DNA of 64,000 nucleotides. Source: Bacteroides gallinarum DSM 18171 = JCM 13658. Lineage in GTDB: Bacteria > Bacteroidota > Bacteroidia > Bacteroidales > Bacteroidaceae. Where the stretch lies: contig NZ_KB894132.1 in assembly GCF_000374365.1 (NCBI RefSeq), positions 1 to 64,000 on the forward strand. The letters are read 5' to 3'. The position numbers and the translations under genes are program-made. Of the stretch, positions 12,790-61,341 are shown piece after piece. Each line of letters starts with the position of its first letter. The stretch's first letter is position 1. The notes beneath the pieces are model-generated. The model searched no databases. It was not told where the DNA came from and was given only the letters and a program-made list of their open reading frames with translations.

Positions 12790-12866
12790 GATAGCCGGTG
12801 TCGCGGAGTCGGGGAGGAGAAACGGATAACTTGTGTCATCTTATCGTTTTTATGGGAAGAAACCAT

Positions 12867-12874
12867 TATCTTTG
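12867..12874 (+). promoter_or_regulatory. candidate -7 box for mnmE
   Basis: TATCTTTG fits the Bacteroides -7 consensus TAnnTTTG exactly and lies 26 nt upstream of the mnmE start at 12900. A clear -33 TTTG at the right distance is not visible, so the assignment is tentative. Confidence 0.4.
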
Positions 12875-12899
12875 CCTTCCTAAAAACAAGCTGGAAATG

Positions 12900-14285: not shown

Positions 14286-14326
14286 CTGATTATCAACAAT
14301 ATTACAATATATCGCTAACTGTCTGA

Positions 14327-14352
14327 AAGCCACCGTTTTGGTGGCTTTTTTC
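14327..14352 (+). terminator. rho-independent terminator of mnmE
   Basis: GCCACC-GTTTT-GGTGGC followed by TTTTTT, 41 nt after the mnmE stop codon. AAA precedes the stem, so the hairpin could also work in reverse. Confidence 0.85.
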
Positions 14353-14487
14353 ATTTTAACACTTTCCATTTGAAACTTGTTACAACCAGTTTTTAAGGGT
14401 AAATTTGGCTCAAATATCGTTCCTATCCCTAAATTTTGCGACCAAATGGCAATGAGAAAATGACATATATGGCACCTTATGCAAAAA

Positions 14488-14569
14488 CTGCAAAAGTGAT
14501 AAATGTGCGCCCGTTGACATGTTGGACACCTCGTGAAAATTCCTGCAAATACCTGAAAATTGCTGCAAA
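14488..14569. repeat. direct repeats near the element end, candidate integrase/regulator arm sites
   Basis: GAAAATTCCTGCAAA (14535-14549) and GAAAATTGCTGCAAA (14555-14569) repeat with a 20-bp period, and a shorter CTGCAAAA sits at 14488-14495. They lie between the mnmE terminator and the HTH gene, where arm-type binding sites of a tyrosine integrase or its HTH partner would be expected. Role inferred. Nothing else was recognised in the 314-nt gap 14286-14599. Confidence 0.45.
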
Positions 14570-14599
14570 GGAAATGGACGATTTTAACATGCCAAAAAG

Positions 14600-16108
14600 A
14601 TGAAGATATTAAAGAAATGTTTAACATGTGGAGCAGAGTTTATTGCATCCAAGATGTCAAATAAATACTGCTGTAGAGAGTGCGAACGTGACGCATCTCG
14701 CAAACGTGAAGCAAAACGTAAAAAAAGTGTCCGGGAAAGTGAAAAAGAAGCAGCTCTTGATAAAGAAAGAGATGCAGTTGCTTCACGACCATTTTTGACA
14801 CCCTCAGATGTTGCCTTATTACTTGATATGAGTGTTAGCACTGTTTATAGATGTTTCTATTCCGGAATCATCAAGGCAGTGAGAATACGTAGAAAAACCC
14901 TTGTCCGTCGTGAGGATCTTGACAAATACTTTGAGGATGCAGGACCTTATAGAAAAAGAAGTTACAAGCGTAAGCAAGAACAAGAATACTATACCCTACA
15001 AGAGATTATGGATAAGTATAAAATTGGACGTAAAGCTGTATGGGGACGTTGTGACAGATTAGGCATCCCTAAAGTTTACGAAGGGCGTAATACTTTCTAC
15101 AGTAAAAAGCTTATTGACGCAAATTTCTCTGAGCTTCTTGATGTCATAGACATTGATAACTATTACACATTGAGTCAAATCATGGAAATGTACAATATGA
15201 CTCAGGGTGCGGCTCTTTGTTTTGTAAAATACCATGCGGTTCCCAGGGTAAAGAGAAATGGCAGGTCTTATTATTCTAAGGTTCATATAGATTGTATAAA
15301 ACACAAGACCGATGAAATTGATCCTGACTGGTACTCTTATGAAGAAGCTATGCAAAAGTATGGCATAACTAAAGATCAGGTAAGTTATACTCTAAAGACC
15401 TATAGCATTAAGACTGAAAAGCGTGGAAAATTCACCATGATTTATCGGACGGATTTTGATAATATCATGCATCAACGTCTTCAAAATTCAACTCCACTAA
15501 TAAAGTCAAATGGTGAAGAAAAGGTTGTTTTCACGGCAAAGCAACAGGAAAAAATCTGTCCAGCAACTCCTGAAGGATACTATTCTACTGATGAGGTAGC
15601 AGAGATGTTTAAAATATCAATAAAGCATGCTGGAGTTATAACAAGAGAGAACAACATACCTAAGATAGCACTGAAAGGATTTAATTTCTATGAGAAGGGA
15701 TCCATTGACCTGTTATACAACAAAAAGAATAAGTATGCAGAAATCACAGACTGGATAACGCCAGAGGAAATGCGTACAACATTTAAAATGACAGCAGATG
15801 GTGTACGCTCTTTTATTCATAGACATAAGATTCCAGCAAAGGTTGAGTATGGTAGTACCTATTATTCCAAACAACACATAGAGGAAATAAAGAATGGATA
15901 TTTTGTTGGTAGAGACAGGTATTATTCCGTAGAAGAAGCTACAAAGAAATATAATCTTACAAATTCACTTGTCTTCTATTACGTCAATCACTATAAGCTC
16001 ACCAGAGTAAAGAAGCAGAAATTCATCTTTTTTAGAAAAGAAGAATTTGACCGGTTAATGGAAAAACGGTTCTCAGAAGATGATTTTATAGCAAATATTG
16101 ATATATAG
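14600..16108 (+). CDS. zinc-ribbon protein with seven tandem helix-turn-helix modules
   Basis: 502 residues. Residues 7-28 form a small zinc finger (CLTCGAEF then YCCREC), followed by a basic linker. Then come seven repeats of a MerR/excisionase-like HTH unit, at about 65-113, 130-175, 188-235, 243-293, 327-373, 385-432 and 440-491. Each begins with a phrase such as YYTLQEIMDKYKI, WYSYEEAMQKYGI or YYSTDEVAEMFKI and ends with a YYSK/FYEK-type strand. Such a chain could read a long DNA site in steps of one module. It lies directly upstream of the integrase, so it is probably the integration/excision cofactor or regulator. The nested element has a shorter, three-module relative before its own integrase (25920-26741). 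Confidence 0.75.
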   Translation: MKILKKCLTCGAEFIASKMSNKYCCRECERDASRKREAKRKKSVRESEKEAALDKERDAVASRPFLTPSDVALLLDMSVSTVYRCFYSGIIKAVRIRRKTLVRREDLDKYFEDAGPYRKRSYKRKQEQEYYTLQEIMDKYKIGRKAVWGRCDRLGIPKVYEGRNTFYSKKLIDANFSELLDVIDIDNYYTLSQIMEMYNMTQGAALCFVKYHAVPRVKRNGRSYYSKVHIDCIKHKTDEIDPDWYSYEEAMQKYGITKDQVSYTLKTYSIKTEKRGKFTMIYRTDFDNIMHQRLQNSTPLIKSNGEEKVVFTAKQQEKICPATPEGYYSTDEVAEMFKISIKHAGVITRENNIPKIALKGFNFYEKGSIDLLYNKKNKYAEITDWITPEEMRTTFKMTADGVRSFIHRHKIPAKVEYGSTYYSKQHIEEIKNGYFVGRDRYYSVEEATKKYNLTNSLVFYYVNHYKLTRVKKQKFIFFRKEEFDRLMEKRFSEDDFIANIDI

Positions 16109-16188
16109 TGATATTTACTTTCAATTTACCGATGTCAGCAATATATCATTCGAGAATTTTGAGACATAAAACTATAAAAACAAATAAT

Positions 16189-17394
16189 ATGCAGTATTGT
16201 AAATCAGTAACTCTCCGTATGCGAGATAGACGAAATGGTACTAAATCATTATTTCTGGACTTTTGGCCAGGCTATAGAAATCCTGAAACAATGGAACTGA
16301 TTCGTCGTCGTTCGCTTGGCATGTATATATATGCCAACCCCATTTCTACACAACAGAAAAAGTATAATGAAGCTATTCTGGCAAAAGCTGAAGCTATTCG
16401 GTGTAAGGTATTCATAGAGGTAATTAATGAGAAATATGACTTCTTTAACCAGGACCGTCTAAAGGAGGACTTTCTTGCATACTTCAAGAATATTGTCAAC
16501 AGAAACTTTGCGAAGTGTGATGCAGCCTATAAACATTTCAGCAGGTTCTGCCACAACAAATGTACATTTGAAATGCTTGATACCGTATTCTGTAACAAGT
16601 ATAAAGAATATCTCTTAGACACGAAAGTATCAGCAAGAGGCAAAGTCATGGTTAACAAGCCTATATCACGAAATACAGCTTCAGCATATTGGAATATCTT
16701 CAAACAAGTTTTAACTAAAGCCTATAGGGAAAGAAGACTTGTAGATAACATAGCATCCCTTTTGGATAATATTCCATGCACAATACCAGTCAAGCAAAGC
16801 CTTTCACTGGAGGAAGTCAGAAAACTATACAACTCAGAATGTTCAGTTCCAGTAGTAAGAAAAGCCGCTATATTTTCCTGTTTGAGTGGATTACGTATAA
16901 GTGATATACTCAATTTAAAATGGGAAAATATCCAAACATATGCAGATGGCGGACATTATCTTGATTTTAAATGTGTAAAGACTCAGCGTCAGACACAGGT
17001 TCCAATCGGTGATGATGCTTATGAACTAATTCAGCCACAAACAACAGATAAATATATTTTTTCAGGATTTAATCGTACTATGACATATAGAGTCATGCAA
17101 GATTGGATTAAGGAATGTGGAATAAAAAAACATATTACCTTTCACTGTTTCAGACATACTTACGCATCCTTACAGCTTGAACTTGGAACTGATATTTACA
17201 CAGTACAACATCTCCTTAATCACAAGAATGTAAGTACCACTCAAATCTATGCTTCACATGCTGATCCGAAAACACGAGAAGCAGCTGATAGAATTAGGTT
17301 AACAAATGTAAAAATGGAAATGCAAGAAAATGAAAACATAAATGTTAATGCAGAAACCAAGAGAAAGAAAGAGAAAGGAAAATCAAAAAAGTGA
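16189..17394 (+). CDS. tyrosine recombinase (integrase) of the outer element
   Basis: 401 residues from the ATG at 16189; the in-frame upstream extension lacks family features. The N-terminal arm and SAM-like core-binding domain are followed by the catalytic domain: SGLRISDILNLKWENI (first Arg), HCFRHTYASLQL (His-x-x-Arg), LLNHKNVSTTQIYASH (His and the nucleophile Tyr). It should carry out site-specific integration and excision of the ICE. The sequence is clearly homologous to the integrase of the nested element (shared LGxYIYANP, AYKHF, LRISDI and HCFRHTYA). The Lys-rich tail (KRKKEKGKSKK) may bind DNA. Confidence 0.9.
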   Translation: MQYCKSVTLRMRDRRNGTKSLFLDFWPGYRNPETMELIRRRSLGMYIYANPISTQQKKYNEAILAKAEAIRCKVFIEVINEKYDFFNQDRLKEDFLAYFKNIVNRNFAKCDAAYKHFSRFCHNKCTFEMLDTVFCNKYKEYLLDTKVSARGKVMVNKPISRNTASAYWNIFKQVLTKAYRERRLVDNIASLLDNIPCTIPVKQSLSLEEVRKLYNSECSVPVVRKAAIFSCLSGLRISDILNLKWENIQTYADGGHYLDFKCVKTQRQTQVPIGDDAYELIQPQTTDKYIFSGFNRTMTYRVMQDWIKECGIKKHITFHCFRHTYASLQLELGTDIYTVQHLLNHKNVSTTQIYASHADPKTREAADRIRLTNVKMEMQENENINVNAETKRKKEKGKSKK

Positions 17395-24323: not shown

Positions 24324-25751
24324 ATGTTTCTATACGTTATCTTAACATTTGTGGCAATCCTTATTGGTATGGCTATCTCAGTCATGGCTTTCGGTACTGG
24401 AGGGAAACGCAAGAAAATCTTCCAGAATATCTACTTCTCTGTGGAAGAGGTCAACGGTATCGGGGTACTTTACACCAAGACCGGTGAATACTCAGCCATT
24501 CTGAAGATGGAAAACCCGGTACAGAAATATTCGGCAGACATTGACAGTTACTACGAGTTCAATCATCTCTTCACTGCCCTTGCACAGACATTAGGTGATG
24601 GATATGCCATCCACAAACAAGATGTATTCATCCGCAAGAAGTTTCATGACGATAGTAATGATAACCATGAATTTCTGTCGGAATCATATTTCAACTATTT
24701 CACAGGTCGTTCCTATACCGACTGTCAGAGCTACATGATTATTACTCAGGAAAACAAGAAGAGCAATCTTTTTTCATTTGACAGCAAGAAATGGCGTGAT
24801 TTCATGGTAAAGATACGCAAGGTCAAAGACCAATTGAAAGACTCTGGTGTGGATGCCCAATTTCTTGACGGCAATAAAGCCCGTGACTACGTAGACCGCT
24901 ATTTCTCTATGAATTTCACGGACAAAAATTTGTCGATGAACAATTTCAAGGTAGATGACGAAGCTATTACCATGGGTGATAGAAGATGCAAAATATATAG
25001 TCTCGTGGATGTGGACTGCATCAACATCCCCTCTCTGGTACGTCCGTTTACGAACATTGAGGTGAACAATGTTTCCATGCCAGTAGACATGGTATCATTG
25101 TTAGACAGCATACCGTCAGCTGAGGTGGTCGTATATAACCAGATGCTCTTCATTCCAAACCAGAAAAAAGAGCTTTCTCTGCTTGAAAAGAAAAAAAACC
25201 GCCATGCAAGTATGCCCAATCCAAGCAACCAGATTGCCGTGGAGGACATTAAAAATGTGCAGGATGTTATCGCAAGAGAAAACAAACAGTTGGTGTATAC
25301 CCATTTCAATCTTATCGTTGGTGTACCCATCGATACGGATATTCAGCGATGTACCAACCATCTGGAGAATCTATTCAGCAAGTTGGGAATCCACATCAGT
25401 AAACAGTCGTACAATCAGTTGGAGCTTTTTGTCAATTCATTCCCTGGAAATTGTTATTCCACCAATCCTGAATACGACCGCTTTCTGACCCTTAGTGATG
25501 CAGCAGCATGTCTTATGTATAAGGAAAGGATTCAGCATAGCGAAGAAACACCGCTGAAAATATACTACACCGACAGACAGGGAGTCCCTGTTGCAATAGA
25601 CATCAGTGGTAAGGAAGGCAAAAACAAGATTACAGATAACTCGAATTTTTTCTGTCTGGGTCCTTCTGGCAGTGGTAAAAGCTTCCACATGGAGAAAAAC
25701 AGGACAAAACGGAAGCAAGCGAAGATAGAATCAACCGTTATAAATACTTGA
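24324..25751 (+). pseudogene. traG: TraG (VirB4-type ATPase), N-terminal part, interrupted by the nested element
   Basis: The true TraG frame runs from 24324 through residue 456. After that the reading frame continues for 19 foreign residues and stops at 25751. The part present includes an N-terminal helix (FLYVILTFVAILIGMAISVM), the TraG_N region (YFSVEEVNGIGVLYTKTGEYS), the long middle domain, and the complete Walker A motif GPSGSGKSFHM. The insertion falls immediately behind this motif. Walker B, and everything needed to hydrolyse ATP, lie at 34624-35817. VirB4 proteins power the transfer channel, so conjugation by this ICE should be off while the nested element is in place. Confidence 0.92.
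25683..25691. repeat. left attachment repeat of the nested element (TTCCACATG)
   Basis: TTCCACATG encodes the residues FHM directly after the GKS of TraG Walker A. An identical 9-mer lies at 34618-34626. Joining 25691 to 34627 gives an uninterrupted traG reading frame, so these are the crossover repeats (attL and attR). Confidence 0.9.
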
Positions 25752-25919
25752 TTTTCAGATAATATGTTTTAACAAACAGGAAATTTGACTATTGGCGTTT
25801 AGTCCTTATTGGAGTAATTTTGTACCACAGTTGTACCTCGTCGGAGGGGTCGCACGGTTCGGCTTCCTTTCAGCAGCGTGCAACAGCTTTCAATAATGTG
25901 CAACTAAATTTCTTCGATA

Positions 25920-26741
25920 ATGGACCGTCAAAAAGAACAGAAATTAACAGGTCTGCCTGACTTCGGTCGGGATATGCCGGACAAGCCGTTCCTCACCATT
26001 GGGGAGGTGGCAGGATTACTGCAAGTGAGCAACCGCACAGTGTATAACCTGATTTACAAAGGTACGCTACGGGCTTGCAGAATAACATACCACACAACAC
26101 TAATCACCAAGGAGGATTTCTTCCTGATGATTAAGGGAACAACCTACTGCAAGCGGAGCGTTTCTGTATTCGCCAAGCAGAGTAAAAAGACAAAAGGGAA
26201 TATGAAAGAAAATATGCAAACGACAGAGGGAACAGCCCTCTCACGACAAGAGGGAAAGAAAAAAACAAAGGGCAGCCCGACCAAACGGCGGCTCATTCCG
26301 GCGGCAAACTACAAACAGTCCGTGCGAGATACCTTTACGGACAAGGACTGCATCGCAGGAGACCTTTATACAATGGCGGAGATATGCCAAAAGTTCAATT
26401 ATACTTACGGGCGTTTCTACAACTTCCGTATGCGTTATTCCATTCCTTGCGTCAAAGCCAACTCAACCAAATGCTTTCCAAAAGCGGAAGTGGACAAGGC
26501 TATGGCGGAGGAAGAGGAACGCTTGGGAAACAACCTTTCAGAACATTGGTATTCGTGCTTCGACATCATGCGCCTGTTCGGGCTTGGCAAGACGCAGGTG
26601 CGCAGGTTCGCCCTTACGCACGGAGTACGGACAAAGCGCATACACGGCAACCGCCTGTACTATCTGAAAGCCGACTGGGATGCGGCGCGAAAAGAAGCCG
26701 AGCGGAAAAGCTCAAGCACGAAAGCCAAGCGGGAACAGTAA
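25920..26741 (+). CDS. three-module helix-turn-helix protein of the nested element
   Basis: 273 residues with three HTH modules at about 24-74 (FLTIGEVAGLLQVSNRTVYN), 149-197 (LYTMAEICQKFNYTYGRFYN) and 209-258 (WYSCFDIMRLFGLGKTQVRR). A long basic linker (residues 80-140) joins the first two. It is a short relative of the seven-module protein of the outer ICE and lies in the same place, directly before the integrase. A role in integration or excision is likely by position. The 175-nt leader (25745-25919) contains two direct repeats (TTGTACC, GTGCAAC). Confidence 0.78.
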   Translation: MDRQKEQKLTGLPDFGRDMPDKPFLTIGEVAGLLQVSNRTVYNLIYKGTLRACRITYHTTLITKEDFFLMIKGTTYCKRSVSVFAKQSKKTKGNMKENMQTTEGTALSRQEGKKKTKGSPTKRRLIPAANYKQSVRDTFTDKDCIAGDLYTMAEICQKFNYTYGRFYNFRMRYSIPCVKANSTKCFPKAEVDKAMAEEEERLGNNLSEHWYSCFDIMRLFGLGKTQVRRFALTHGVRTKRIHGNRLYYLKADWDAARKEAERKSSSTKAKREQ

Positions 26742-26772
26742 AATATTTTCAAACATTCAAATACACATTTAT

Positions 26773-27879
26773 ATGACGAACATTTGTACAAAAGTGACGG
26801 TCAGGAAACGACCTATCAAGAACGGGCAGTTATCACTCTATCTTGACTTTTATCCACCTGTCAGACACCCGAAGACCGGAAAGCTGACAAGACGGGAGTA
26901 TCTGGGCATCTACATCTATGCCAACCCGACAGAGAAGTTTGAAACGGAGTTCAACAAGACCATGCTGCGCAATGCGGAACTTATCAAGTGCAGGAGGACC
27001 GAAGCTATCATCAATGAGGAGTTCGGCTTCCTTGACCGCAACAGAGGCAAGGAAAGCTTCTTGGAATACTTCCGCTCGAAAATGGCGGACGATGACAATT
27101 TCAGGAACTGGAATGTCGCCTACAAGCACTTTGAGAAGTATTGCGGCGGAAGCTGCACCTTTGACGACCTGACGGTGGAATACTGCCAGGGCTTCCTTAC
27201 CTATATGCTTTCTCTCAATACGCACAACGGCGGTAAGATGATGGCTTCCACTGCCAACAACAACCTGAACAAGCTGAAATGCGTCCTGCGTCAAGCCTAT
27301 GAGGAAAGGCGGATAAAGGAAAACATCGCACCACGCCTGAAGCACGCAAAGGAAGCCAGCACAAGACGTGAGTTCCTGACACTTGACGAGGTGAAAATGC
27401 TTGCGGACACACCTTGCGAGAAGCCTGTTGTAAAGTCAGCCGCACTGTTCTCCTGTCTTACCGGACTGCGCATCAGCGACATCATACGCCTGCAGTGGGA
27501 GAATATCATCAAAGCTGCGGACGGCGGCTGGTGTATGCACATCGTTACGAAAAAGACAAGGACGGAAGCCATACTGCCGCTGTCCGATGAAGCCCTTGCA
27601 CTATGCGGCGGACGTTCCGCCGGGCAGGTGTTCAAGGGGCTTACCCAAGCTCTGCTTCCCTTATATCTCAAAGACTGGATTAGGTCTGCCGGGATTACGA
27701 AGCACATCACGTTCCATTGCTTCCGGCATACCTACGCTACCCTGCAGCTTGCCGCCGGTACAGACCTTTACACCATCTCGAAAATGCTTACTCACAGCAA
27801 CGTGGCGACAACGCAGGTCTATGCGGACGTGGTGAACGATTTGAAGCGTAAGGCTTCCGAACAGATAACACTTAAATAA
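26773..27879 (+). CDS. tyrosine recombinase (integrase) of the nested element
   Basis: 368 residues from the ATG at 26773. It has the N-terminal domain with LSLYLDFYPPVRHPKTGKL and LGIYIYANP, a core-binding domain, and the catalytic residues: TGLRISDIIRLQWENI (Arg), HCFRHTYATLQL (His-x-x-Arg) and MLTHSNVATTQVYADV (His and Tyr). It is expected to join the 9-bp TTCCACATG sites in and out of traG. The upstream in-frame extension overlaps the HTH gene and is not part of the family. It is homologous to the outer ICE integrase at 16189. Confidence 0.9.
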   Translation: MTNICTKVTVRKRPIKNGQLSLYLDFYPPVRHPKTGKLTRREYLGIYIYANPTEKFETEFNKTMLRNAELIKCRRTEAIINEEFGFLDRNRGKESFLEYFRSKMADDDNFRNWNVAYKHFEKYCGGSCTFDDLTVEYCQGFLTYMLSLNTHNGGKMMASTANNNLNKLKCVLRQAYEERRIKENIAPRLKHAKEASTRREFLTLDEVKMLADTPCEKPVVKSAALFSCLTGLRISDIIRLQWENIIKAADGGWCMHIVTKKTRTEAILPLSDEALALCGGRSAGQVFKGLTQALLPLYLKDWIRSAGITKHITFHCFRHTYATLQLAAGTDLYTISKMLTHSNVATTQVYADVVNDLKRKASEQITLK

Positions 27880-27911
27880 CCCGGACAGAATAACCAAAGT
27901 AAAAGATTGAT

Positions 27912-28298
27912 ATGGGTAATATCACATTTGAGCAACTGCCACAGGCTGTTTCCACCCTGATAGAACGGGTGGAGCAGCTTGCCGGAAAGGTGGACGAGGT
28001 GTTGGGCAAGACAACAGGAAAAGACACGGGCAGGCGCAATCTGCTCACCCTTGAAGAAGTCGCCGCCCTGCTCGGCAAATCGGCTTCCACCATCTATGCC
28101 ATGACTTCCGAAAAACGCATACCGTACCGCAAGCGTGGCAACAAACTCTATTTCTTCGAGGATGAAGTCATGCAGTGGATTGAGCAGGGCGGAACATCGG
28201 GAACAGGCAGCGAGGAAGATTTCAACAGACGGCTTGAAGCCTTGCGCAGCGGCAAGAAGCGCAAGCCGGGCTCTTTACAGACGGATAACAAACAATGA
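27912..28298 (+). CDS. excisionase-like helix-turn-helix protein of the nested element
   Basis: 128 residues. The coiled N-terminus (LPQAVSTLIERVEQLAGKVD) is followed by the HTH_17 domain: LTLEEVAALLGKSASTIYAM, then KRIPYRKRGNKLYFFEDEVM. The tail is basic and Gly/Ser rich. It follows the integrase by 32 nt and is probably the recombination directionality factor or its regulator. The same protein type occurs twice in the outer element (18239 and 19728). Confidence 0.82.
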   Translation: MGNITFEQLPQAVSTLIERVEQLAGKVDEVLGKTTGKDTGRRNLLTLEEVAALLGKSASTIYAMTSEKRIPYRKRGNKLYFFEDEVMQWIEQGGTSGTGSEEDFNRRLEALRSGKKRKPGSLQTDNKQ

Positions 28299-28302
28299 AC
28301 TT

Positions 28303-28650
28303 ATGAAGACAGAAGATTTGACAGCCGCCATCGCACGGCATGACCCTATCTTGGCGGATGCAGTCGGTAAAATGGTCGGCTACATTCAGGACAGGTGGGC
28401 AGCACCGTACCCCTTAAAAGAACAAACGGAAGCGGTCAATGCTTACCTCCGTTCCGTCCATGCGGACGGTGACGGAACTATGAGCGAGACCAACATCGCC
28501 CACCGCAGGATTGCCACGCAAAAGATAACCATCAATGCCATCCGTGTGCTTGACCATGACCAGCTTGACCGCCTGCAGGATGTGCTGAACCACATCGCAG
28601 CGGACAGGGAATACCACATGCCGGAACACGGGTATGGCATGGGCAGATAG
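28303..28650 (+). CDS. small hypothetical protein (115 aa)
   Basis: Begins MKTEDLTAAIARHDPILADA and continues helical, with a WAAPYPLKEQTEAVNAYL phrase and a His/Asp-rich C-terminus (LDHDQLDRLQDVLNHIAADR). The start at 28303 follows the HTH stop by 4 nt, so it is translated in the same operon. No domain is recognisable. Its location between the excisionase and the mobilisation genes suggests a helper of excision or mobilisation, but this is only positional. Confidence 0.6.
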   Translation: MKTEDLTAAIARHDPILADAVGKMVGYIQDRWAAPYPLKEQTEAVNAYLRSVHADGDGTMSETNIAHRRIATQKITINAIRVLDHDQLDRLQDVLNHIAADREYHMPEHGYGMGR

Positions 28651-28682
28651 CTGAGCAGTGTAACATCTAAATTTCATAGACT

Positions 28683-29405
28683 ATGCGCAAAGAAGAACAT
28701 ACCATACTTTACTGCACCATTCTTTCCGCCGGGCAGTGGGATTTCCTTTTGGACTGCAAAGCCGCCATCAACAGGCAGAAGTGCCTGTACAGGCTGATGA
28801 CTGCCGCTGTGCGGACAAAAACCGTCCTCCATATCAAGGGCGTTGAGATTGCCTTGGAGGTGGGACAGGCAGCAGCATCCGATGTGGAACTGGCTGAGTA
28901 TATGGGCTGCAACCGCAAGACAATCGGAAAACTCATCGACAGTTTTAACAGGTTCGGTATGCTGACCACACAAACCAACAACCGCACTTCCATACACACC
29001 CTGCATTTCCTTACGGGGTGGTATGTGGATGGTGTCCTTTTGACCAATCCCCATTATGTCAAGCCTGTGGCTGTTCACAAAGGACAGACTGATGAAGCGC
29101 GGACACCATACTCTAATGATATGCTTTTGGAAAACAGGCAATGTTCCGTGCCGGACGCTTGCAAATACCCAAGGCAGGATGCGGACAGCATGGCAGGCGG
29201 AGCAGCCTCCCTTTCTTCCCTCTGTTCGTCTGTGGCTTCCGAAAGTCCGAAAGACAGACGGGGTGCGGAGGGCAAAACCGACAAAGCTCCTTTAATAGGC
29301 AGCAATGATATGGCACTTGCCGGAAATCGCCCTGAAAGCCCGAAAGAAGCACTGGACGGCACGATTGGCGGCGCAGATAGCCCCGACATAGGCTGCAGGG
29401 ATTGA
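28683..29405 (+). CDS. hypothetical protein with a winged-helix-like centre, possible mobilisation accessory protein
   Basis: 240 residues. The first 140 form an ordered domain: YCTILSAGQWDFLLDCKAAI, then EYMGCNRKTIGKLIDSFNRF (a likely HTH) and IHTLHFLTGWYV. The last 100 residues are Ser/Pro/Ala-rich and probably disordered. It stands before the hairpin array and the relaxase gene. By position it could be the small DNA-binding partner often found with MobV-type relaxases, but no family name can be given with confidence. Confidence 0.55.
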   Translation: MRKEEHTILYCTILSAGQWDFLLDCKAAINRQKCLYRLMTAAVRTKTVLHIKGVEIALEVGQAAASDVELAEYMGCNRKTIGKLIDSFNRFGMLTTQTNNRTSIHTLHFLTGWYVDGVLLTNPHYVKPVAVHKGQTDEARTPYSNDMLLENRQCSVPDACKYPRQDADSMAGGAASLSSLCSSVASESPKDRRGAEGKTDKAPLIGSNDMALAGNRPESPKEALDGTIGGADSPDIGCRD

Positions 29406-29749
29406 CGGGCGCACAGCGCAGGATTTCAGCGGTACTCCGTTGGTGTGGCGTGAACGACCGTGCTTGCATCGGTATAGCCCACTATAACTTCTCCGCTGCA
29501 CTCCGAAGTTGTGGGCTCTCCCGAGGGGCTGGGCGTTGCCCCGTCCCACTCAGGGCGCCGCCCTAAGAACCCGGCAAGGACTTTCAGCCCTGTGCAACCC
29601 GACCAAAGAGTGCCCCCCTCTTTGGAAACTCCACTCAGTGGTTTCCACCCCTGAGAACCCGGAGCAGGAAGTGACCCTCTCCCTGCACCCTCCGATTAAG
29701 GCTTTGCCCTAATAACCCGAAGTAAAACTCAAAAATATAGACAAGCCCT
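29406..29749. other. GC-rich hairpin array upstream of the relaxase, candidate oriT
   Basis: This 344-nt gap holds several consecutive inverted repeats: AACTTC/GAAGTT, GGGGCTGGGCGTTGCCCC, AGGGCGCCGCCCT, CCAAAGAG/CTCTTTGG, GGAAAC/GTTTCC, and AAGGC/GCCTT-type pairing. Four of the units end with AACCCG (within AAGAACCCGG, GCAACCCGA, GAGAACCCGG, ATAACCCGA). MobV-type origins of transfer lie directly upstream of the relaxase gene and carry such repeats, so this is probably the nested element's oriT. The nick site cannot be pinned down. Confidence 0.55.
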
Positions 29750-31282
29750 ATGGCACAGAAGACATCCATCAACATCAAGCCGTGCAACATCGGCAGCAGC
29801 GGAGCGCATAACAGACGGTCTGCGGAATACCTTGCCAATATCCGCAAGGAAAAGTTCTACATCCGTACCGACCTCATGGCGGGAAATGAAGCATGGGTAG
29901 CACCTGAACTGGGTGATACCTCGTTGGCTGAACGCTACAATCAGATAGCCGCAATGGTCAAGGAAAAGACAGGTCGGGCGATGCAGACCAAAGACCGTGA
30001 ACGGATAAACAAGAAAACCGGAAAGGTGACCATCGTCCGTGGCAGCACTCCGCTCAAAGAGGGTGTTGTCGTAATCAAGGATGATACCACAATGGAACAG
30101 TTACAGCGTTTCTGTGAGGTGTGTAACAAGCGTTGGGGCATCACAGCTCTGCAAATCTTCATCCACCGTGACGAGGGGCATTACGGAACACCCGGAAACA
30201 ATGCCACATGGAAGCCCAATCTCCATGCCCACATCGTATGGGACTGGATGAACCACGAAACAGGCAAGTCCTGTAAGCTGAAAGAAGAGGACATGAGTGA
30301 GATGCAGACCGTTTTGGCTGAGTGCTTAGAAATGGAAAGGGGCACCTCAAAGGAGGTGACGGGCAAGGAACATCTGGAGCGCACGGACTTCATCATCGCC
30401 AAGCAGAAGCAGGAAGCGGAACAGGCGAAAGCCGCAAGGCAAGCCGCCATCGCCGCCAAGGAGGAAGCCGAAGCTGAACTTATGTTTGTGGAGAGCGAGA
30501 ACAAGGCAAAAGAGCAGTACCGCATTTCCCTCGACAACGAAATTGCCGAAAAGGAGAAACAGCTAAAAGATGAGCGCAAGGCGAAAGTGGACAGCATACT
30601 GGACAGTGTCGGCAATCTTGTCGGGGTCGGCAAGTCCGCAGCAGTCGAAAAGGAAAACGCCAGGCTGAAAGCCGAGAACGAGCGCATGAAGAAAGCCTTT
30701 GCCAAAGCCGTAAAGGACAAGGCGGAGGAACGGGCAAAGGCATTGACCGCAGAAAAACTGAAAGCCGAAACGGAACGTGACAGGGCTTTGGCGCAGAGCC
30801 GTTCACTCGCAGCGGAAAGGGACCAGGTCATAAACCAGCTTCAGGCGCAAATTGATGGTGAGGAGCATCGTATAGGCTTTGCCGTAAGCCGTGCTATGGA
30901 AAAGCGAGACAAGACCATCCGCCTGCTGCAAAATGCGCTGAAAGTAAGCAGTTACATCCTGAAACAGTTTGCTGATATGCTTTACAAGGCAAGCGAGGTA
31001 TTCAAGCGTGCCGTTGATGCGATAATCCATTTCGGCACGGATAAGTACAAGTCGGTCTTTGCCCCACAAGAAGCTGCAGACATTAAGAGTGTGATGCAGG
31101 AGTATGGGGAAACGACCGAACAGAAGAAAGCGGTCGGCGAGTGGCTATGCTACTATGCTGAAAGCAATAAGCCATTTGACACAATAAAACACCGCCATAC
31201 ACTCAAGGAGGTTGGCGATGTGGCGGAGGGAAAGTATGATTGGAAGATTGATAGACAAATAAATGGAAGCATCAAATTATAG
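29750..31282 (+). CDS. MobV-family (Pre/Mob-like) relaxase
   Basis: 510 residues. The N-terminal relaxase domain (about 1-210) holds the MobV core: an early AQKTSINIKPCNIGSSGAHN, then FIHRDEGHYG with the HxDE of the family and NLHAHIVW supplying the two further His. It should nick oriT and stay on the strand end during mobilisation. Residues 220-400 are a long Ala/Glu/Lys-rich coiled coil. The C-terminus (about 400-510) is unfamiliar, with LKQFADMLYKASEVFKRAVD. It is the only relaxase in the window. It uses another element's coupling protein and pore. Confidence 0.85.
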   Translation: MAQKTSINIKPCNIGSSGAHNRRSAEYLANIRKEKFYIRTDLMAGNEAWVAPELGDTSLAERYNQIAAMVKEKTGRAMQTKDRERINKKTGKVTIVRGSTPLKEGVVVIKDDTTMEQLQRFCEVCNKRWGITALQIFIHRDEGHYGTPGNNATWKPNLHAHIVWDWMNHETGKSCKLKEEDMSEMQTVLAECLEMERGTSKEVTGKEHLERTDFIIAKQKQEAEQAKAARQAAIAAKEEAEAELMFVESENKAKEQYRISLDNEIAEKEKQLKDERKAKVDSILDSVGNLVGVGKSAAVEKENARLKAENERMKKAFAKAVKDKAEERAKALTAEKLKAETERDRALAQSRSLAAERDQVINQLQAQIDGEEHRIGFAVSRAMEKRDKTIRLLQNALKVSSYILKQFADMLYKASEVFKRAVDAIIHFGTDKYKSVFAPQEAADIKSVMQEYGETTEQKKAVGEWLCYYAESNKPFDTIKHRHTLKEVGDVAEGKYDWKIDRQINGSIKL

Positions 31283-31313
31283 TTGTTAATGCTTTTACAC
31301 ATGAATAATGGAT

Positions 31314-32075
31314 CTACCAGAATCTCTTTCGGAACGGAAAACCCCTCAAACGAAACAAAGAACCAAAGGATGTGATATAGGTAGATTGCGGTGTGTTGCG
31401 ACCGTAATATGCGGCAGTGTTTTGTTGAGAAGCAACAATCATTGGGTCATTCCCGTTTTGTACAGCTTTAATGAATAAATCCATTATCTCGTACTTATTA
31501 CCAAAACAGGCATCAGATTGCATCAAAATGTTAGATACTACTTGTCGAATAGAGCGAGGATATATAATAAAAGTATTGTCTGCATTGCAAGTTATGTCCT
31601 TAAACTCACTATTTCCAAAGAAAACGATAACAGAGTAAATTGGAATGCCGGGATTATGTGGTAAATTTTGCCTGATAGCTTGAATATGTCCGGCGTTTTG
31701 TTTTACAGGATTATAAAAACGATGTTTTTCTTTTCCATACGCTAATAATTGCGTCCAATATCTCTGTTGTTCATTGCCAAAAATCCACCCGCTATAATCT
31801 TTTATCTCAAACACAATAATACCTTTTTTTGTGGCAACGACCACATCCACTTGGGTATATTCACCATTTGTTTTCTGGATGTACAAGTCGTGAAATATGG
31901 CTTTGGGATTGATACCAGCTTTCAATAATTCCAACACCACCCTGCGCTCCGACCGTTCCCCACGAGTAATGGGCGTAACTTGTTCTATAAGTTCACGCTC
32001 TTTCCTTTTTATATAGACAAAATATACAATGCCTATCGTCAAACAAATTAAAAGTATGACTGGTACAAGTGGCAT
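31314..32075 (-). CDS. NERD-domain protein, membrane anchored
   Basis: 253 residues. An N-terminal helix (LVPVILLICLTIGIVYFVYI) is followed by a NERD (nuclease-related) domain: TRGERSERRVVLELLKAG, then YTQVDVVVATKKGIIVFEIK, where D, E and K fit the restriction-fold active site. WIFGNEQQRYWTQLLAYGKE and NPVKQNAGHIQAIRQ continue the family pattern. NERD proteins are suspected DNA-processing enzymes. The minus-strand AT-rich context shows that it belongs to the cargo, not to the mobility genes. It is the last gene of the four-gene cargo set. Confidence 0.82.
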   Translation of the reverse strand: MPLVPVILLICLTIGIVYFVYIKRKERELIEQVTPITRGERSERRVVLELLKAGINPKAIFHDLYIQKTNGEYTQVDVVVATKKGIIVFEIKDYSGWIFGNEQQRYWTQLLAYGKEKHRFYNPVKQNAGHIQAIRQNLPHNPGIPIYSVIVFFGNSEFKDITCNADNTFIIYPRSIRQVVSNILMQSDACFGNKYEIMDLFIKAVQNGNDPMIVASQQNTAAYYGRNTPQSTYITSFGSLFRLRGFPFRKRFW

Positions 32076-32121
32076 TATTGATTGTTCTATGTTTTAGAAT
32101 GGGATTAGCAATACAAAATAC

Positions 32122-32829
32122 TTATTTGAAAGCAACTATAGGAATTACCTTTGTATTTCCATATTTTTGATATTTATAGTTACCGACTTGTCTTGCACAT
32201 TTACCCTTTGGAGCTTTGACTATTTGATTGTTATAGAAATTGCTGCCATCTTGAGCTAATATTAAGACTTCTAAATCAGAAGTAAATATATGTCCCCCAA
32301 TAGTTTCTCTAATTTCCAGTGCAATAGCATCACCAGATTCCAAGACTTCCTGTACTTCAAAATTTTTCCGGCTTACGCAATCTCCAGGTTTGTCAAACAA
32401 TGTCTTTCCAGAATTATTTTTAGTCGAAACTGTTTTATTTGATTTCGGTAATTCAACACCGTCAATTATTCTAACAGCCGGAACTGTTTTTTCTATATCC
32501 ATTTTAGTACTATATCTATAAGTTCCCACGTGTTGAGCACATTGGTCACTTTTTAGCACGATTTTTTGGTCGTCATAAAATTGTTGATTTTCATTTGGTA
32601 TAATAAGTACTATTGTTCCAAATGATTCATCGGCATGAGCTAATGCGCATCCTGATGAAACTACTTGGAATACTTCAAATTGTGAGTATTCCATATAATC
32701 TCCGGGTTCTTCAAACATTTCAAGTCCTATAATTCCCGAATTATTAGATAGATTAACGCAAAATGCGAAAGCAAATGTGAGTATAACACCTGTGATTACA
32801 CCAAGCACGTAAATAAGCCATTTTTTCAT
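32122..32829 (-). CDS. membrane-anchored protein with a duplicated domain, function unknown
   Basis: 235 residues. One N-terminal helix (LIYVLGVITGVILTFAFAFC) is followed by two copies of a domain of about 75 residues. They align at YSQFEVFQVVSSGCALAHAD/RKNFEVQEVLESGDAIALEI, at FYDDQKIVLKSDQCAQHVGT/FYNNQIVKAPKGKCARQVGN, and at the ends VPAVRI/VIPIVA. The repeated FYNNQ and C-A-x-x-V-G-x-Y signatures suggest a small beta barrel. The domain should be outside the cytoplasm. I do not recognise the family. It is 18 nt from the gene upstream. Confidence 0.6.
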   Translation of the reverse strand: MKKWLIYVLGVITGVILTFAFAFCVNLSNNSGIIGLEMFEEPGDYMEYSQFEVFQVVSSGCALAHADESFGTIVLIIPNENQQFYDDQKIVLKSDQCAQHVGTYRYSTKMDIEKTVPAVRIIDGVELPKSNKTVSTKNNSGKTLFDKPGDCVSRKNFEVQEVLESGDAIALEIRETIGGHIFTSDLEVLILAQDGSNFYNNQIVKAPKGKCARQVGNYKYQKYGNTKVIPIVAFK

Positions 32830-32847
32830 ATAGTTTGTTTTTATTGA

Positions 32848-33546
32848 TTATATCGTTGTTAATGAATTGAAGTCATCATTGGAGATTTTTCCTATTGAAA
32901 CTAGCCATTTAAGGTAAGAAATATCATCTTTGATTTCACTAAACTTTTTCCCTTTATATTTTCCAAAGCCAATAATTCTTTCGGAAATGGATATATCTGA
33001 GGACTTTTCTACATCTGGATACAATCGTTTAAGCTCTTCAAAGTCAATTTTAAAGAACCTATCTGTTGTTTCTAACCAATAAAGATATTGGTAATCCATT
33101 GTATAAATATCTCCCAAGGATTTTCCTTTATATTTTCCGAACTGTAGAACTTCTTCCGCTTTGTGAATAGGAAATATTTCATCAAGCGATACACCGGGAA
33201 CATCAATCAAAACCCATTCTCCACATCCTGCACAAGGAATTTCCTCATCTTTGATATCTGGATAGCACTCCTGTCTATAACTATCGTCCGGCTTACCATT
33301 CACAAAGCATTTCCCATAAGCCTTGCCGTATTTACCACGTGGTTTTACCGTTTCAACTAAAAAAGTCCTATCTCGATTAGGGTCAATACGTCTATCTTCG
33401 CTTGAAGAACGAGCTAATCCCAACTCACATCTTTTTACTAAGAATGGAGTTCGTTTGCCAATGTTGTAATATATGTTGAAGATATTATCGTGTGGGTACA
33501 TACTTTTATGTTGCTGTAAAATGCTTTTACTATTTGAACAACTCAT
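32848..33546 (-). CDS. protein with two exoX-C-like FGKYKGK repeats
   Basis: 232 residues. Two short repeats end the chain, VLQFGKYKGKSLGDIYTMDY with YLYWLE and IGFGKYKGKKFSEIKDDISY with LKWL. This pattern resembles the C-terminal accessory domain of exodeoxyribonuclease X and of many DNA-acting proteins. The first 120 residues are novel, with a single CAGCGEW zinc-knuckle-like spot, but no nuclease core is evident. The repeats could bind DNA ends. The gene start overlaps the end of the lipoprotein gene by 17 nt. Confidence 0.62.
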   Translation of the reverse strand: MSCSNSKSILQQHKSMYPHDNIFNIYYNIGKRTPFLVKRCELGLARSSSEDRRIDPNRDRTFLVETVKPRGKYGKAYGKCFVNGKPDDSYRQECYPDIKDEEIPCAGCGEWVLIDVPGVSLDEIFPIHKAEEVLQFGKYKGKSLGDIYTMDYQYLYWLETTDRFFKIDFEELKRLYPDVEKSSDISISERIIGFGKYKGKKFSEIKDDISYLKWLVSIGKISNDDFNSLTTI

Positions 33547-33985
33547 TAATTTTTTTCCTTATTGCATTTAAGGCTATACTTTGGTCATGACTTACCGTCA
33601 TCCCAATACCACTACTTTTTATAACGGCTACACTTTGATTAGTGTTATAATCGTAAAAAGTTACTGTTATATATGTATGTCCTCCATCCCACTTTTCAGA
33701 TGTGACGTGGATATTAGGTGAAAGAATACTATCCGAACATTCAAGAATTTTTAATGTGTTAGAGGGCGATAAAACTGTTAGATTGGTTTCTGCTATCTGA
33801 TTTTGAACAGACATAACAACATCATCCAATTCTCTATCTCCAGATGTTTCTTTCCCGAAAATGACATACTTGTATTTACTAATGTTTGCATTATTAGATA
33901 GAACAATCTTTCCTGAAGCACAAGATGTCATTAGTGCTATCATAGCGGCTATAGATATAATATAAATTATAAACTTTTGCTTCAT
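33530..33985 (-). CDS. small lipoprotein, first gene of the cargo block
   Basis: 151 residues. A lipoprotein signal (about 1-22; lipobox LMTSC) places it at the envelope. The mature part is beta-rich: SKYKYVIFGKETSGDRELDD, then TYITVTFYDYNTNQSVAVIK and a C-terminal helix (ALNAIRKKINELFK), somewhat like DUF4136-type lipoproteins. Overlap with the following gene and equal composition mean that 33985-31314 is likely one transcript. No function is known. Confidence 0.62.
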   Translation of the reverse strand: MKQKFIIYIISIAAMIALMTSCASGKIVLSNNANISKYKYVIFGKETSGDRELDDVVMSVQNQIAETNLTVLSPSNTLKILECSDSILSPNIHVTSEKWDGGHTYITVTFYDYNTNQSVAVIKSSGIGMTVSHDQSIALNAIRKKINELFK

Positions 33986-33993
33986 TTCCTGTT

Positions 33994-34280
33994 ATACCAA
34001 TGGCTCTTTTAGTTCCAATTGAACCGTTATTTACGCAGAAGCGTGGAACTGCAAATGCCACGTTCTGAATTGGAGGTCGTAGGAAACCTGTACACACGAA
34101 TGTAGTAATAGCAGCCCACGCTATAGCGTGAGAACCACTATGCCACCCTTGTGTGTAATTGTGAAATTTCCTACGTTTCCAATTCACAAGATAAGCATAA
34201 CGCTTCTTAATTTCTATGTCTCGGATGGGGTTTCCCCAATCCAAATACAAAGGTAATGAAATTCCCATAAAAGCTCTCAT
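33994..34280. other. strongly structured region at the cargo boundary
   Basis: The arms 34066-34086 and 34167-34186 pair almost perfectly (TGAATTGGA with TCCAATTCA, CGTAGGAAA with TTTCCTACG). Inside them ACACACGAA pairs with TTGTGTGT, and near the tip stands the perfect palindrome CACGCTATAGCGTG (34117-34130). A separate hairpin (CGTGG/CCACG) lies at 34042-34062. The whole would fold into a rod of about 120 nt. A minus-strand open frame (33894-34280) crosses it but overlaps the lipoprotein gene and shows no familiar domain. A structured RNA, a recombination site or a gene with odd structure are all possible. Confidence 0.5.
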
Positions 34281-34424
34281 TTATAGATAAAAAACAGCGT
34301 TTCAAGATTTATTTTCCCTCTTTTTGTATCTCTATTGGCTCTCCAAGTGTTTAAGAATCTGTTTTTCAGCGGTAAAATGCAATTCATTGACAAGTCCTTT
34401 GCGGTTTTACCCCTGCTCCGACTA

Positions 34425-34493
34425 ATGTGTGCAAAAAGATAAAAATATCTGCTAATTGTTAAGTTTTTGTTAAATCTTTATCTTCGCACACAT
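34425..34493. repeat. inverted repeat near the right end of the nested element
   Basis: ATGTGTGC-aaa-AAGATAAA (34425-34443) pairs with TTTATCTT-c-GCACACAT (34477-34493). The spacer contains AAGTTTTTGTTAAATC. It lies 125 nt before the right attachment repeat, where integrase or accessory-protein binding sites are expected. Nothing else was recognised in 34281-34617. Confidence 0.5.
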
Positions 34494-34617
34494 ATTCTTC
34501 CTCCAAGTTCACTTCCTCAAAAGACAGCTTTTTTACCTCATTTCTCAAAGAGTAGATTTTTGTACCTTTATTTTCCTATATACCTGATAATCAATAACAA
34601 ATACTCTCTCATATGTA

Positions 34618-34626
34618 TTCCACATG
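34618..34626. repeat. right attachment repeat of the nested element (TTCCACATG)
   Basis: Identical to 25683-25691. Its final ATG is both codon 456 of the undisturbed traG and the first ATG of the remaining C-terminal reading frame. Confidence 0.9.
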
Positions 34627-35817
34627 AACAGCGTTGTACGTCAGATGTGGGAACAGAATACTGATGTGGTTCTGGTTGATACAGGTAATTCATACGAGGG
34701 ACTTTGCGAGTATGTAGGTGGCAAGTATATCAGCTATACCGAGGAGCATCCTATCACGATGAACCCTTTTGCTATCAAACATGAAGAGCTGAACATCGAG
34801 AAAATCGGTTTCTTGAAGAATCTGATTATGCTTATATGGAAAGGCACTCAGGGAGTAGTTACCAAGACGGAAGACCGGCTTATTGAGCAAGTCATCAAAG
34901 AATACTTTGACGAGTATTTTGTGAACCGTCGTATTGAGAATCTCTCGTTCAACACCTTCTACGAGTACAGTATTGTCCGCATACCGCAAATCATTGAAGA
35001 AAATAAACTTTCGGGAATTGACTTGGCGGCCTACAACTATCTGTTGAAGGACTTCTACAAGGGTGGAGGCCATGAAGTGACGCTGAATGAGAACCTGGAC
35101 ACCAAACTGTTTGATGAGACCTTCATCGTATTTGAAATTGACTCTATCAAGGATGACCCTCTTCTATTCCCTCTTGTTACGCTTATCATCATGGATGTAT
35201 TCATCCAGAAGATGAGAATCAAGAAGAACCGTAAGGTACTGGTTATCGAAGAGGCATGGAAGGCTATCGCCTCTCCCATGATGGCCGAATATATCAAGTA
35301 TCTATACAAGACAGCCCGTAAGTTCTGGGCTTCTGTCGGTGTGGTAACGCAGGAAATACAAGATATTGTAGGAAGTCCTATTGTCAAGGAAGCTATCATC
35401 AATAACTCAGACGTGGTAATGCTGCTCGACCAGAGCAAATTCCGTGAGCGATTTGATGAGATTAAAACCACGCTCGGTTTGACGGATGTTGATTGTAAGA
35501 AAATTTTCACTATCAATCGTCTGGAAAATAAGGAAGGGCGAAGTTTCTTCCGTGAGGTCTTTATCCGACGTGGAAGTGTCGGGGCCGTATTTGGAGTTGA
35601 AGAGCCACGTGAATGCTACATGACTTACACTACAGAGCGAGCTGAAAAGGAAGCCTTGAAACTCTATAAAAGAGAGTTAAAGTGTGACCATCAGCATGCC
35701 ATAGAAGCCTATTGCCGGGATTGGAGTCTTTCAGGAATAACCAAGTCTTTGGCCTTTGCACAAAAGGTGAACCAGGCTCAACATGTTCTTAATCTCAAAA
35801 CAAAAACAGAAATGTAA
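34624..35817 (+). pseudogene. traG: TraG (VirB4-type ATPase), C-terminal part
   Basis: 397 residues that begin at codon 456 of the original gene (MNSVVRQMWEQNTDVVLVDT). The Walker B region VLVIEEAWKAI, the GVVTQEIQDI motif and the C-terminal helical part (TYTTERAEKEALKLYKREL) are all present, but no Walker A. Together with 24324-25691 it would give an 852-residue protein, a normal TraG length. The ATG at the junction might allow expression of the fragment from a promoter in the element, though it could not hydrolyse ATP alone. The traG stop is followed 9 nt later by the next tra gene. Confidence 0.92.
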
Positions 35818-53686: not shown

Positions 53687-53691
53687 TAGTT

Positions 53692-58676: not shown

Positions 58677-58679
58677 AAT

Positions 58680-60593: not shown

Positions 60594-60600
60594 GTTAGTA

Positions 60601-61341
60601 ATGGAAGCAGCATACTATAATCTATTATACGACGTTTTAAAAGGATACGACCATTGCACCCCTAGTAAAATTGTTAGTCTTAGAAACAACCAAATATTTG
60701 TTTTTGGGACGAATAAATATGGTTCGCAAAAACATGGCGCTGCAGGACTAGCTGCAAAAAGTTTTGGAGCTCAGGTTGGCATTACAAATGGTCCAACAGG
60801 AATGTGTTATGCGCTACCAACAATGGGGGTCGATATTCACATACTTGGAAAAGCTATATTACAATTTGAACAATTCGCACGTAATAATAGAGATAAAACA
60901 TTTCTTGTTACACCTATTGGATGTGGCCATGCTGGTTTCAATGTAGAAGATGTCGCTCCTTTCTTTAAAGGATGTATTGCGTTGAAAAATGTCATGTTGC
61001 CTGAGCAATTCCTTTGTTTCTTCAGAAAAGAATGTATTGAAAAGTTACACATCAAAGAAACCAACAGTGCTAACAATAATCAAGAGGTAGATTACTATCT
61101 CCTCTATGACGAATCGGTACATCCTGTACTAAAATATCTCGAAGCACACTCAATTCCATTCTCAAAAGACGGTGGATTCTCACTTGTAGATGAGAATGAC
61201 AATGTCATAGCAGAAGCAGAATTGTGCATCGAATCAGAAAAGATTGTATTTTACCCTAACGATCAAAATAGTGAAAAGGCTTTAGTTGCAGCGGGTTATA
61301 CAATAATGTCTGTTAACGAATACCTCACTTCTAAATTTTAA
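60601..61341 (+). CDS. macro-domain-like (A1S_2505/Tk.4-type) protein with C-terminal extension
   Basis: 246 residues. Residues about 27-140 match the A1S_2505/PHA02595-type pattern: IFVFGTNKYGSQKHGAAGLA, GPTGMCYALPTMG and VTPIGCGHAGFNVEDVAPFF. This family is considered macro-domain related, and phage T4 has a member; the link to ADP-ribose is by analogy. The last 90 residues form another small domain (YYLLYDESVHPVLKYLEAHS, LCIESEKIVFYPNDQNSEKA). Pairing with a SIR2 protein makes handling of an ADP-ribose product or signal possible. It lies 8 nt before the giant gene. Confidence 0.7.
   Translation: MEAAYYNLLYDVLKGYDHCTPSKIVSLRNNQIFVFGTNKYGSQKHGAAGLAAKSFGAQVGITNGPTGMCYALPTMGVDIHILGKAILQFEQFARNNRDKTFLVTPIGCGHAGFNVEDVAPFFKGCIALKNVMLPEQFLCFFRKECIEKLHIKETNSANNNQEVDYYLLYDESVHPVLKYLEAHSIPFSKDGGFSLVDENDNVIAEAELCIESEKIVFYPNDQNSEKALVAAGYTIMSVNEYLTSKF

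Follow-up and report, generated by a model that had tools for sequence, protein, structure and literature searches.

A putative mobilizable element inserted behind the Walker A codons of a VirB4-type traG in Bacteroides gallinarum, and its relatives at the same codons

The DNA analysed here (the window) comprises the first 64,000 nucleotides of contig NZ_KB894132.1 of Bacteroides gallinarum DSM 18171 = JCM 13658, and holds an integrative and conjugative element (ICE) beside mnmE. Within this ICE, the gene traG is split by a second, mobilizable element, which is the subject of this report. The traG of the window encodes the VirB4-type ATPase of Bacteroidota ICEs (TIGR03783, PF19044) and is distinct from the VirD4-type proteins called TraG elsewhere. 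The parts of the split gene and its junctions are as follows:

24324..25691, + strand: traG N part (VirB4-type conjugation ATPase), 456 codons to GPSGSGKSFHM, frame open on to 25751
25683..25691, + strand: left repeat TTCCACATG, 9 bp; core of the left attachment site (attL), Phe-His-Met codons
25692..34617, + strand: element body, 8935 bp counting one repeat copy
34618..34626, + strand: right repeat TTCCACATG, core of the right attachment site (attR), in-frame ATG at 34624
34618..35817, + strand: traG C part, 399 codons including Phe-His-Met (FHM), with profile matches

The initial annotation had described a 9-bp repeat that encodes FHM behind GPSGSGKS and flanks a mobilizable element, and TTCCACATG, the Phe-His-Met codons, is indeed found at both ends of the element. 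Translation of the N part ends in LGPSGSGKSFHM, and the C part starts with FHMNSVVRQ. The further claim that removal of the element with one repeat copy leaves an 852-codon traG agrees with the coordinates, by which the split frame is whole again without the insert (456 + 399 - 3 = 852 amino acids, by arithmetic and not by joining the parts), and the profile halves meet: the N part matches PF19044 (P-loop_TraG) to profile position 45 and TIGR03783 to position 455, and the C part matches them from positions 44 and 453, respectively. Because the matches of both parts meet there, these alignments place the insertion point three codons past the Walker A Ser, within the NTPase domain. The frame of the N part extends 19 codons into the element, and the ATG within the right repeat is available as a start for the C part. 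TTCCACATG occurs four times in the window, the two further copies, at 11700 (+) and 19158 (-), being away from the element ends; its mean number in the shuffled window was 0.74, and none of 100 shuffles had four copies. A chance repeat as explanation of the pair is ruled out by these shuffles together with other loci, since, counting the window, 26 genomes have the same junction, at 28 loci that carry the integrase.

The element carries the following genes and predicted sites:

25792..25822, + strand: promoter-like TTGG-N19-TAATTTTG (predicted), upstream of the excisionase-like and integrase genes, same direction as traG
25920..26741, + strand: excisionase-like helix-turn-helix protein, 273 amino acids (TIGR01764, HTH_17, phrog_66)
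26680..27879, + strand: tyrosine recombinase (integrase), 399 amino acids (Arm-DNA-bind_5, Phage_int_SAM_5, Phage_integrase)
27912..28298, + strand: second helix-turn-helix protein, 128 amino acids (TIGR01764)
28683..29405, + strand: 240-amino-acid protein, weakly DnaD-like (helicase loader; weak match)
29750..31282, + strand: putative relaxase, 510 amino acids (PF03432 at 18.5 bits, below the cut-off of 24.6)
31314..32075, - strand: cargo, NERD-domain protein, 253 amino acids (Pfam)
32122..32829, - strand: cargo, 235-amino-acid protein without Pfam match
32848..33546, - strand: cargo, 232-amino-acid protein with ExoX-like_C repeats (Pfam)
33530..33985, - strand: cargo, 151-amino-acid protein, N-terminus lipoprotein-like by eye

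The element is very probably an integrative and mobilizable element (IME), with its own integrase bearing Phage_integrase, SAM_5 and arm-binding domains in Pfam, and with a putative relaxase below the Pfam cut-off. Among seven homologues of the latter that were scanned, five have a weak PF03432 match, likewise below the cut-off, and two have none; no PDB or PHROG entry matches the putative relaxase by sequence, and no solved structure matches the traG N part in this way. No pore (type IV secretion system) genes were found between 25692 and 34617 with open reading frames (ORFs) and Pfam, the ORF at 33530-33985 being judged by eye only. Inward from the left junction the excisionase-like gene is followed by the integrase gene, both co-directional with traG, and the orientation of the element is always the same because the target is asymmetric. 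Of the 27 left ends scanned, 20 have, 101 or 112-113 bp inward, a pattern TTGG/TTTG/TTGC-N19-TAnnTTTG, which we regard as promoter-like on the basis of the Bacteroidota promoter consensus; the remaining seven do not fit it. An E. coli-type promoter scan found none, and no terminator-like site was seen between the junction and the excisionase-like gene.

Relatives of the integrase were sought with peptide patterns in bacterial and archaeal genomes, and a tree was built from the best 80 of the 428 relatives found, the window and L149, a locus from another search (the short row of L077 was kept). A clade of 46 rows (SH-aLRT, the Shimodaira-Hasegawa-like approximate likelihood ratio test, 100) comprises 28 rows at the FHM site, 16 elsewhere and 2 undecided. 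The 28 site rows, from 26 genomes, are located directly behind GKS-FHM of a traG, and a conserved ICE conjugation gene is the site-specific target of 28 of the 46 rows at one traG/VirB4 triplet. Outside the clade there are 36 rows; none of the 29 with at least 2.8 kb upstream is at the site, and seven have less than 1.6 kb upstream, too short to tell. The clade rows are mostly from several families of Bacteroidota, and two of the 46 (L050, L054) bear Bacillota names on metagenome-assembled genomes, which may be due to misbinning.

The set of split copies (n = 29) includes L195, whose contig ends before the integrase. Identity between their N parts goes down to 43%, and clustering at 90% gives 18 groups. 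The P-loop codons that precede the core are variable, the 36-mers that end in it taking 23 forms; the core itself is nearly constant, with 27 TTCCACATG and 2 TTTCATATG. Both traG parts are available for 15 split copies, and in each of these traG continues from the core at the right junction. The database search that had been proposed, for insertions flanked by the repeat in other traGs, has therefore yielded many and nucleotide-precise ones. The expectation that the P-loop codons give the element a site in many ICEs held as far as the same junction lies in traGs down to this 43% identity, but only the GKS-FHM class is used in the loci seen. That any conjugation ATPase could be a target was not borne out: the four CTnDOT-type traGs read have GKS-FFM or GKS-FFT in place of GKS-FHM. 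We regard it as nearly certain that the element belongs to an IME family whose primary site is the Phe-His-Met codons behind Walker A of a VirB4-type TraG, and the sampled genomes indicate that this family is spread through gut Bacteroidota. No relative above 60% identity was found in a plasmid search; viral contigs gave 10 relatives, all of at most 56% identity, and the double-core word had no match there.

Outside the genomes of the window and L149, 42 carrier genomes were searched for an exact GKS-FHM pattern; in 24 of them the element is in traG, in 16 it is elsewhere, and 2 are undecided. The 24 traG carriers have 32 such sites, 26 of them occupied and 6 reading as free, and the element occupies the site in 24 of the 26 decided carrier genomes that have one. 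Related elements at unrelated sites, which the initial annotation had taken to speak against its reading, do occur in 16 of the 46 rows, yet 14 of these 16 genomes are without a detectable FHM site in the assembly, and two have a free one. Because 14 of the 16 show no site by pattern, the insertions elsewhere look like secondary-site use. In 399 genomes of the window's family, 44 match the pattern at 65 places (63 GKS-FHM and 2 with another P-loop motif, GRGKT), and at least 11 of the 63 GKS-FHM sites are filled, not every site having been read. In an order-wide pattern search of a thin sample (149 genomes), only the window's own genome matched. The secondary site of L043 has the short repeat AAATCAATT, and that of L077 has the repeat TATG inside a gene that resembles a Sel1-repeat gene by eye; because these short repeats are other ones, the crossover point within the element's junction is not fixed.

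The right end of the window's element reads CTCTCATATG-TA-TTCCACATG, in which two 7-mers, TCATATG and CCACATG, stand 11 bp apart. The former is an additional feature of the window:

34609..34615, + strand: alternative core TCATATG in the right end, 11 bp before CCACATG; its counterpart is used at the TTTCATATG target of L036

This pair is also present in the right ends of L035, L037, L038, L039 and L047, and at the left end in L036, L050 and L061; L056, L057, L058, L059, L060, L062 and L149 have in the left end a CATATG 11 bp behind CACATG, i.e., in reverse order. TTCCACATG and TTTCATATG are the most frequent target spellings, the 63 sites comprising 56 TTCCACATG, 5 TTTCATATG and one each of two mixed forms. 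The 27 TTCCACATG split copies join the element at CACATG (the attL core now seen may itself be derived from the element), and the two TTTCATATG split copies join at CATATG, L036 by both ends and L050 by the left end only. In L038, an extra copy of the right end lies inside the element at 15981, as if two tandem insertions had partly decayed.

For codon analyses, N parts were dereplicated at 97% nucleotide identity (59 N parts, 58 scored); L189, which has a very long branch, was left out of the event counts, and a run including it gave the same change counts. The Phe-His codons are TTC-CAC in 47, TTT-CAT in 9 and mixed in 2 copies (phi coefficient 0.88), and phi does not exceed 0.29 in 25 control pairs, which consist of other conserved twofold codons no more than three codons from each other. 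When the core is omitted from tree building, eight changes are counted for each codon and nine for the pair; seven of the nine events are joint, versus at most 26% in the controls. Among 109 close pairs there are 26 double and 9 single switches, whereas single switches are the more numerous kind in each of the 25 controls. Codon preference at the site, taken by itself, is not exceptional, the C-ending fractions of 0.83 and 0.80 comparing with 0.16-0.95 in conserved columns; the coupling of the two codons is the only exceptional codon feature. The clearest comparison is between L036, a TTTCATATG copy joined through the CATATG core, and L195, a TTCCACATG copy joined through CACATG: their N parts have 23 differences in 1281 nt, and in the last 612 nt they differ only at -306 and in the two core codons; the empty outgroup L203 carries TTTCATATG. 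Exchange of the overlap on entry or exit would explain this pattern simply. The tyrosine recombinases of Tn916 and CTnDOT tolerate heterologous overlaps, and we give such an exchange between element and target an even chance.

Direct repeats of 9 bp flank the insert, and natural empty alleles have the single site. Both traG parts of L060 are identical to the empty gene L169, from which L041 differs at one position, and the elements of L060 and L041 belong to different branches of the integrase tree; L037 and L039 show no amino-acid change relative to the empty L153/L163. These comparisons suggest that the splitting of traG by these elements is probably reversible. The ratio of nonsynonymous to synonymous substitution rates (dN/dS) of split parts is at most 0.21 where computable, except for 0.32 in the C part of L149, which also has an early stop, and intact controls range to 0.20.

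In the explanation that we prefer, the integrated element would knock out traG and cut the downstream tra genes off their promoter. Transcription of tra could run into the excisionase-like and integrase genes, because these adjoin the junction co-directionally with no terminator-like site seen between. Excision would restore traG, so that the ICE could build its pore, and the excised IME could travel through this pore and, once in the recipient, insert again at these codons of an ICE there. Integration and excision would exchange the 7-bp overlap between element and target, by which the TTC-CAC and TTT-CAT spellings of the host would be swapped as a block with the protein unchanged. We put the probability of this explanation as a working whole (IME address, excision switch and overlap exchange) at about 0.75. 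Excision as an on-switch for the host ICE is plausible, and could as well be wrong as right; the combined proposal, that the attachment region is fitted to the protein motif so that two cores 11 bp apart rewrite the ATPase codons silently while excision switches on the helper ICE, stands at similarly balanced odds. Regulated excision is documented for skin and for active lysogeny in comK, to which the likeness is that excision would restore a split gene here as well.

Several observations weigh against this explanation. The 16 clade rows away from the FHM site include those of L064 and L068, in which the element is elsewhere despite a free site, and in a subgroup of 12 rows of the clade only one row is at the site, so site specificity is weaker or different there. 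The putative relaxase remains below its cut-off, and joined element ends (a circle) were not found in the window's own assembly. Only a single core is present in L041, L044 and L051-L053. TTT-CAT copies are few, and AAC follows the core in almost every copy, whatever its state, which says little on where a swapped block ends. The C part of L195, whose attR would have allowed a direct test of overlap exchange, was not found (the genome is 86% complete, and the search had no positive control). The low dN/dS of split copies mostly goes back to the time before insertion and speaks for absence of decay rather than use, and early stops occur in 2 of 13 split C parts and 4 of 41 intact ones (the C-part comparison excluded L001-L034, L125-L148, L150-L152 and L155-L157, which are short pieces or duplicate other loci). 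Furthermore, because 15 of the 24 carriers have another full-length TraG-family ATPase, which could serve in trans, the host ICE need not be the helper.

This last point leads to a possible, although tentatively held, alternative, in which the element is purely a parasite: the conserved codons would merely be a safe address, the host ICE would be killed, and mobilization would be provided in trans by other ICEs, with no switch. The window's genome, too, holds another full-length TraG-family ATPase, and the 16 of 46 secondary-site copies manage without the traG address. On the other hand, no other such ATPase was seen in 9 of the 24 carriers (assemblies may be incomplete), the early stops given above show no clear excess of decay in the split halves over intact genes, and an empty traG allele is identical to a split one. 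A quite different idea, that the ATPase still works in two pieces with the C part restarting at the repeat ATG, would fit the open C part behind the ATG at 34624 and the low dN/dS in both parts. We consider it very improbable, as the cut lies within the NTPase domain right behind Walker A, the tail of the N part differs between elements, and intact halves are more simply due to recent insertion or frequent excision. The same non-conserved tail argues against a truncated N part that keeps Walker A and is made on purpose to poison the pores of co-resident ICEs. The short tail and stop within the element, together with three intact FHM traGs and further TraGs in the window's genome, would suit such a dominant negative, which we nevertheless hold to be the least probable of these possibilities.

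The joint codon switching could also have causes other than the element: a bias in codon pairs, gene conversion between homologous traGs, or common descent. In favour of these, traG alleles may recombine, and the TTT-CAT copies are few (9 of 58). We find this rather unlikely: no such bias is seen for Phe-His pairs elsewhere in the fetched DNA, in mechanically called long ORFs (at least 900 nt; phi 0.10, n = 492), and TTT-CAT requires seven changes on the tree, at least six of them on starred branches. A long conversion tract is unlikely because the core state is unlinked to other conserved twofold codons of the N part (|phi| at most 0.35) and because the Ser codon just before the core varies among the TTT-CAT copies (TCG 5, AGT 2, TCC 1 and AGC 1).

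Other genes of the host ICE in the window include the following:

16108..17394, + strand: tyrosine recombinase of the host ICE, 428 amino acids (profile match)
45318..47504, + strand: coupling protein (VirD4/MobC type) of the host ICE (profile match)

At 12798-14600, the ICE seems to start right behind mnmE, its first genes being those of a 502-amino-acid helix-turn-helix protein and of its own tyrosine recombinase. A comparison of the mnmE 3' end (about 14200-14330) with contig positions 20000-84000 showed no direct repeat of at least 12 bp. For the host ICE's own relaxase, no PF03432 or PF01076 match above the cut-off was found on the window's contig. A Porphyromonas-type peptidyl-arginine deiminase family gene (PAD_porph; 48707-50020, - strand) is located between the transfer genes and a region at 50891-61341 that is likely defence cargo of the ICE, with a DrmD-like helicase, a SIR2 protein like ThsA, a small protein weakly like ZorE and a type IIG restriction-modification protein over two frames (53683-56316 and 56313-58676).

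Further nesting was observed among the relatives. In L049 (8230-9279) and L214 (8721-8891), which share a contig (G807:C28), an IME integrase gene is cut at FHCFRH-motif codons by an insert of about 18 kb. Towards its far end this insert has two stretches that resemble integrases (about 25% identity), and about 8 codons are repeated at the cut. The integrase of L048 (10001-11050) is cut at the same codons, and the start of its insert is similar by eye. The cut integrase genes are a third level of nesting, again in conserved codons. In the genomes of L071 and L075 (G825 and G827), the nearest same-strand traG C parts are about 43 and 33 kb from the N parts, and the inserts are therefore much larger or hold further elements. 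In the genome of L056 (G819), the N part is on another contig than a C part that opens with the core (C2:326402 and C3:398519); a break in the contig may be the reason, or a rearrangement involving copies of the element.

That IMEs insert in conserved ICE genes is already published for Firmicutes, as is the idea that the ICE is restored by excision (PMC5704250, PMC5357655). Streptococcal and clostridial IMEs in Tn5252-type ICEs (IME_Sco1050_traG_site1/2, Tn6104, IMESp2907) occupy a specific internal site and disrupt an ICE gene, as the window's element does, and re-enabling of the host ICE by their excision is in print as a hypothesis for streptococci (PMC5704250, PMC5357655). These IMEs use serine integrases and target traG (there the VirD4 coupling protein), maff2 or snf2; the present family differs in its tyrosine recombinase, its VirB4-type ATPase target (TIGR03783), the Walker A neighbourhood, its Bacteroidota hosts and two synonymous cores. 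IME_oriT of Streptococcus agalactiae, described in PMC5704250, shares with it a tyrosine integrase and a conserved ICE site, but it targets the nic site of the origin of transfer in very different ICEs and not the coding DNA of an ATPase. The Bacteroidota IMEs NBU1/NBU2, Tn4555 and MTnPi1-3 have tyrosine recombinases and are mobilized by ICEs (PMC5704250); the targets reported for them do not include an ICE gene, being the 3' end of a tRNA-Ser gene, a 589-bp locus or AT-rich sites. NBU1 is described there as using secondary sites when the preferred one is absent, and Tn4555 as requiring for target choice tnpA, a gene upstream of its integrase (PMC5704250); the helix-turn-helix gene that precedes the integrase gene in the window's element may be comparable. 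P-loop inteins are selfish insertions beside the invariant Walker A Lys, a site offered by many ATPases (PMC5050341); they are spliced out at the protein level, whereas the window's element must excise as DNA. Prophages that restore split genes are also cited in PMC5357655. In the open-access literature searched, we found no description of a tyrosine-recombinase IME at the TraG/VirB4 P-loop, of the present family and its VirB4 target, or of codon rewriting, and the last is possibly a new effect.

With the present family, the parasitism of ICEs by IMEs is seen also in Bacteroidota, with a tyrosine recombinase that targets coding DNA, and at highly conserved codons of the gene for the conjugation motor. 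Its frequency is notable, given the at least 11 filled sites among the 63 of the window's family. Gene spread between gut Bacteroidota depends much on such ICEs, and an element that locks and unlocks them would, if the proposal is true, shape gene flow among these bacteria. If overlap exchange takes place, site-specific recombination and not point mutation would drive synonymous change in a conserved gene, and the tracking of a protein motif by an integrase through synonymous drift would become testable. The conserved catalytic codons of a rival's engine would then be a reusable, self-refreshing address.

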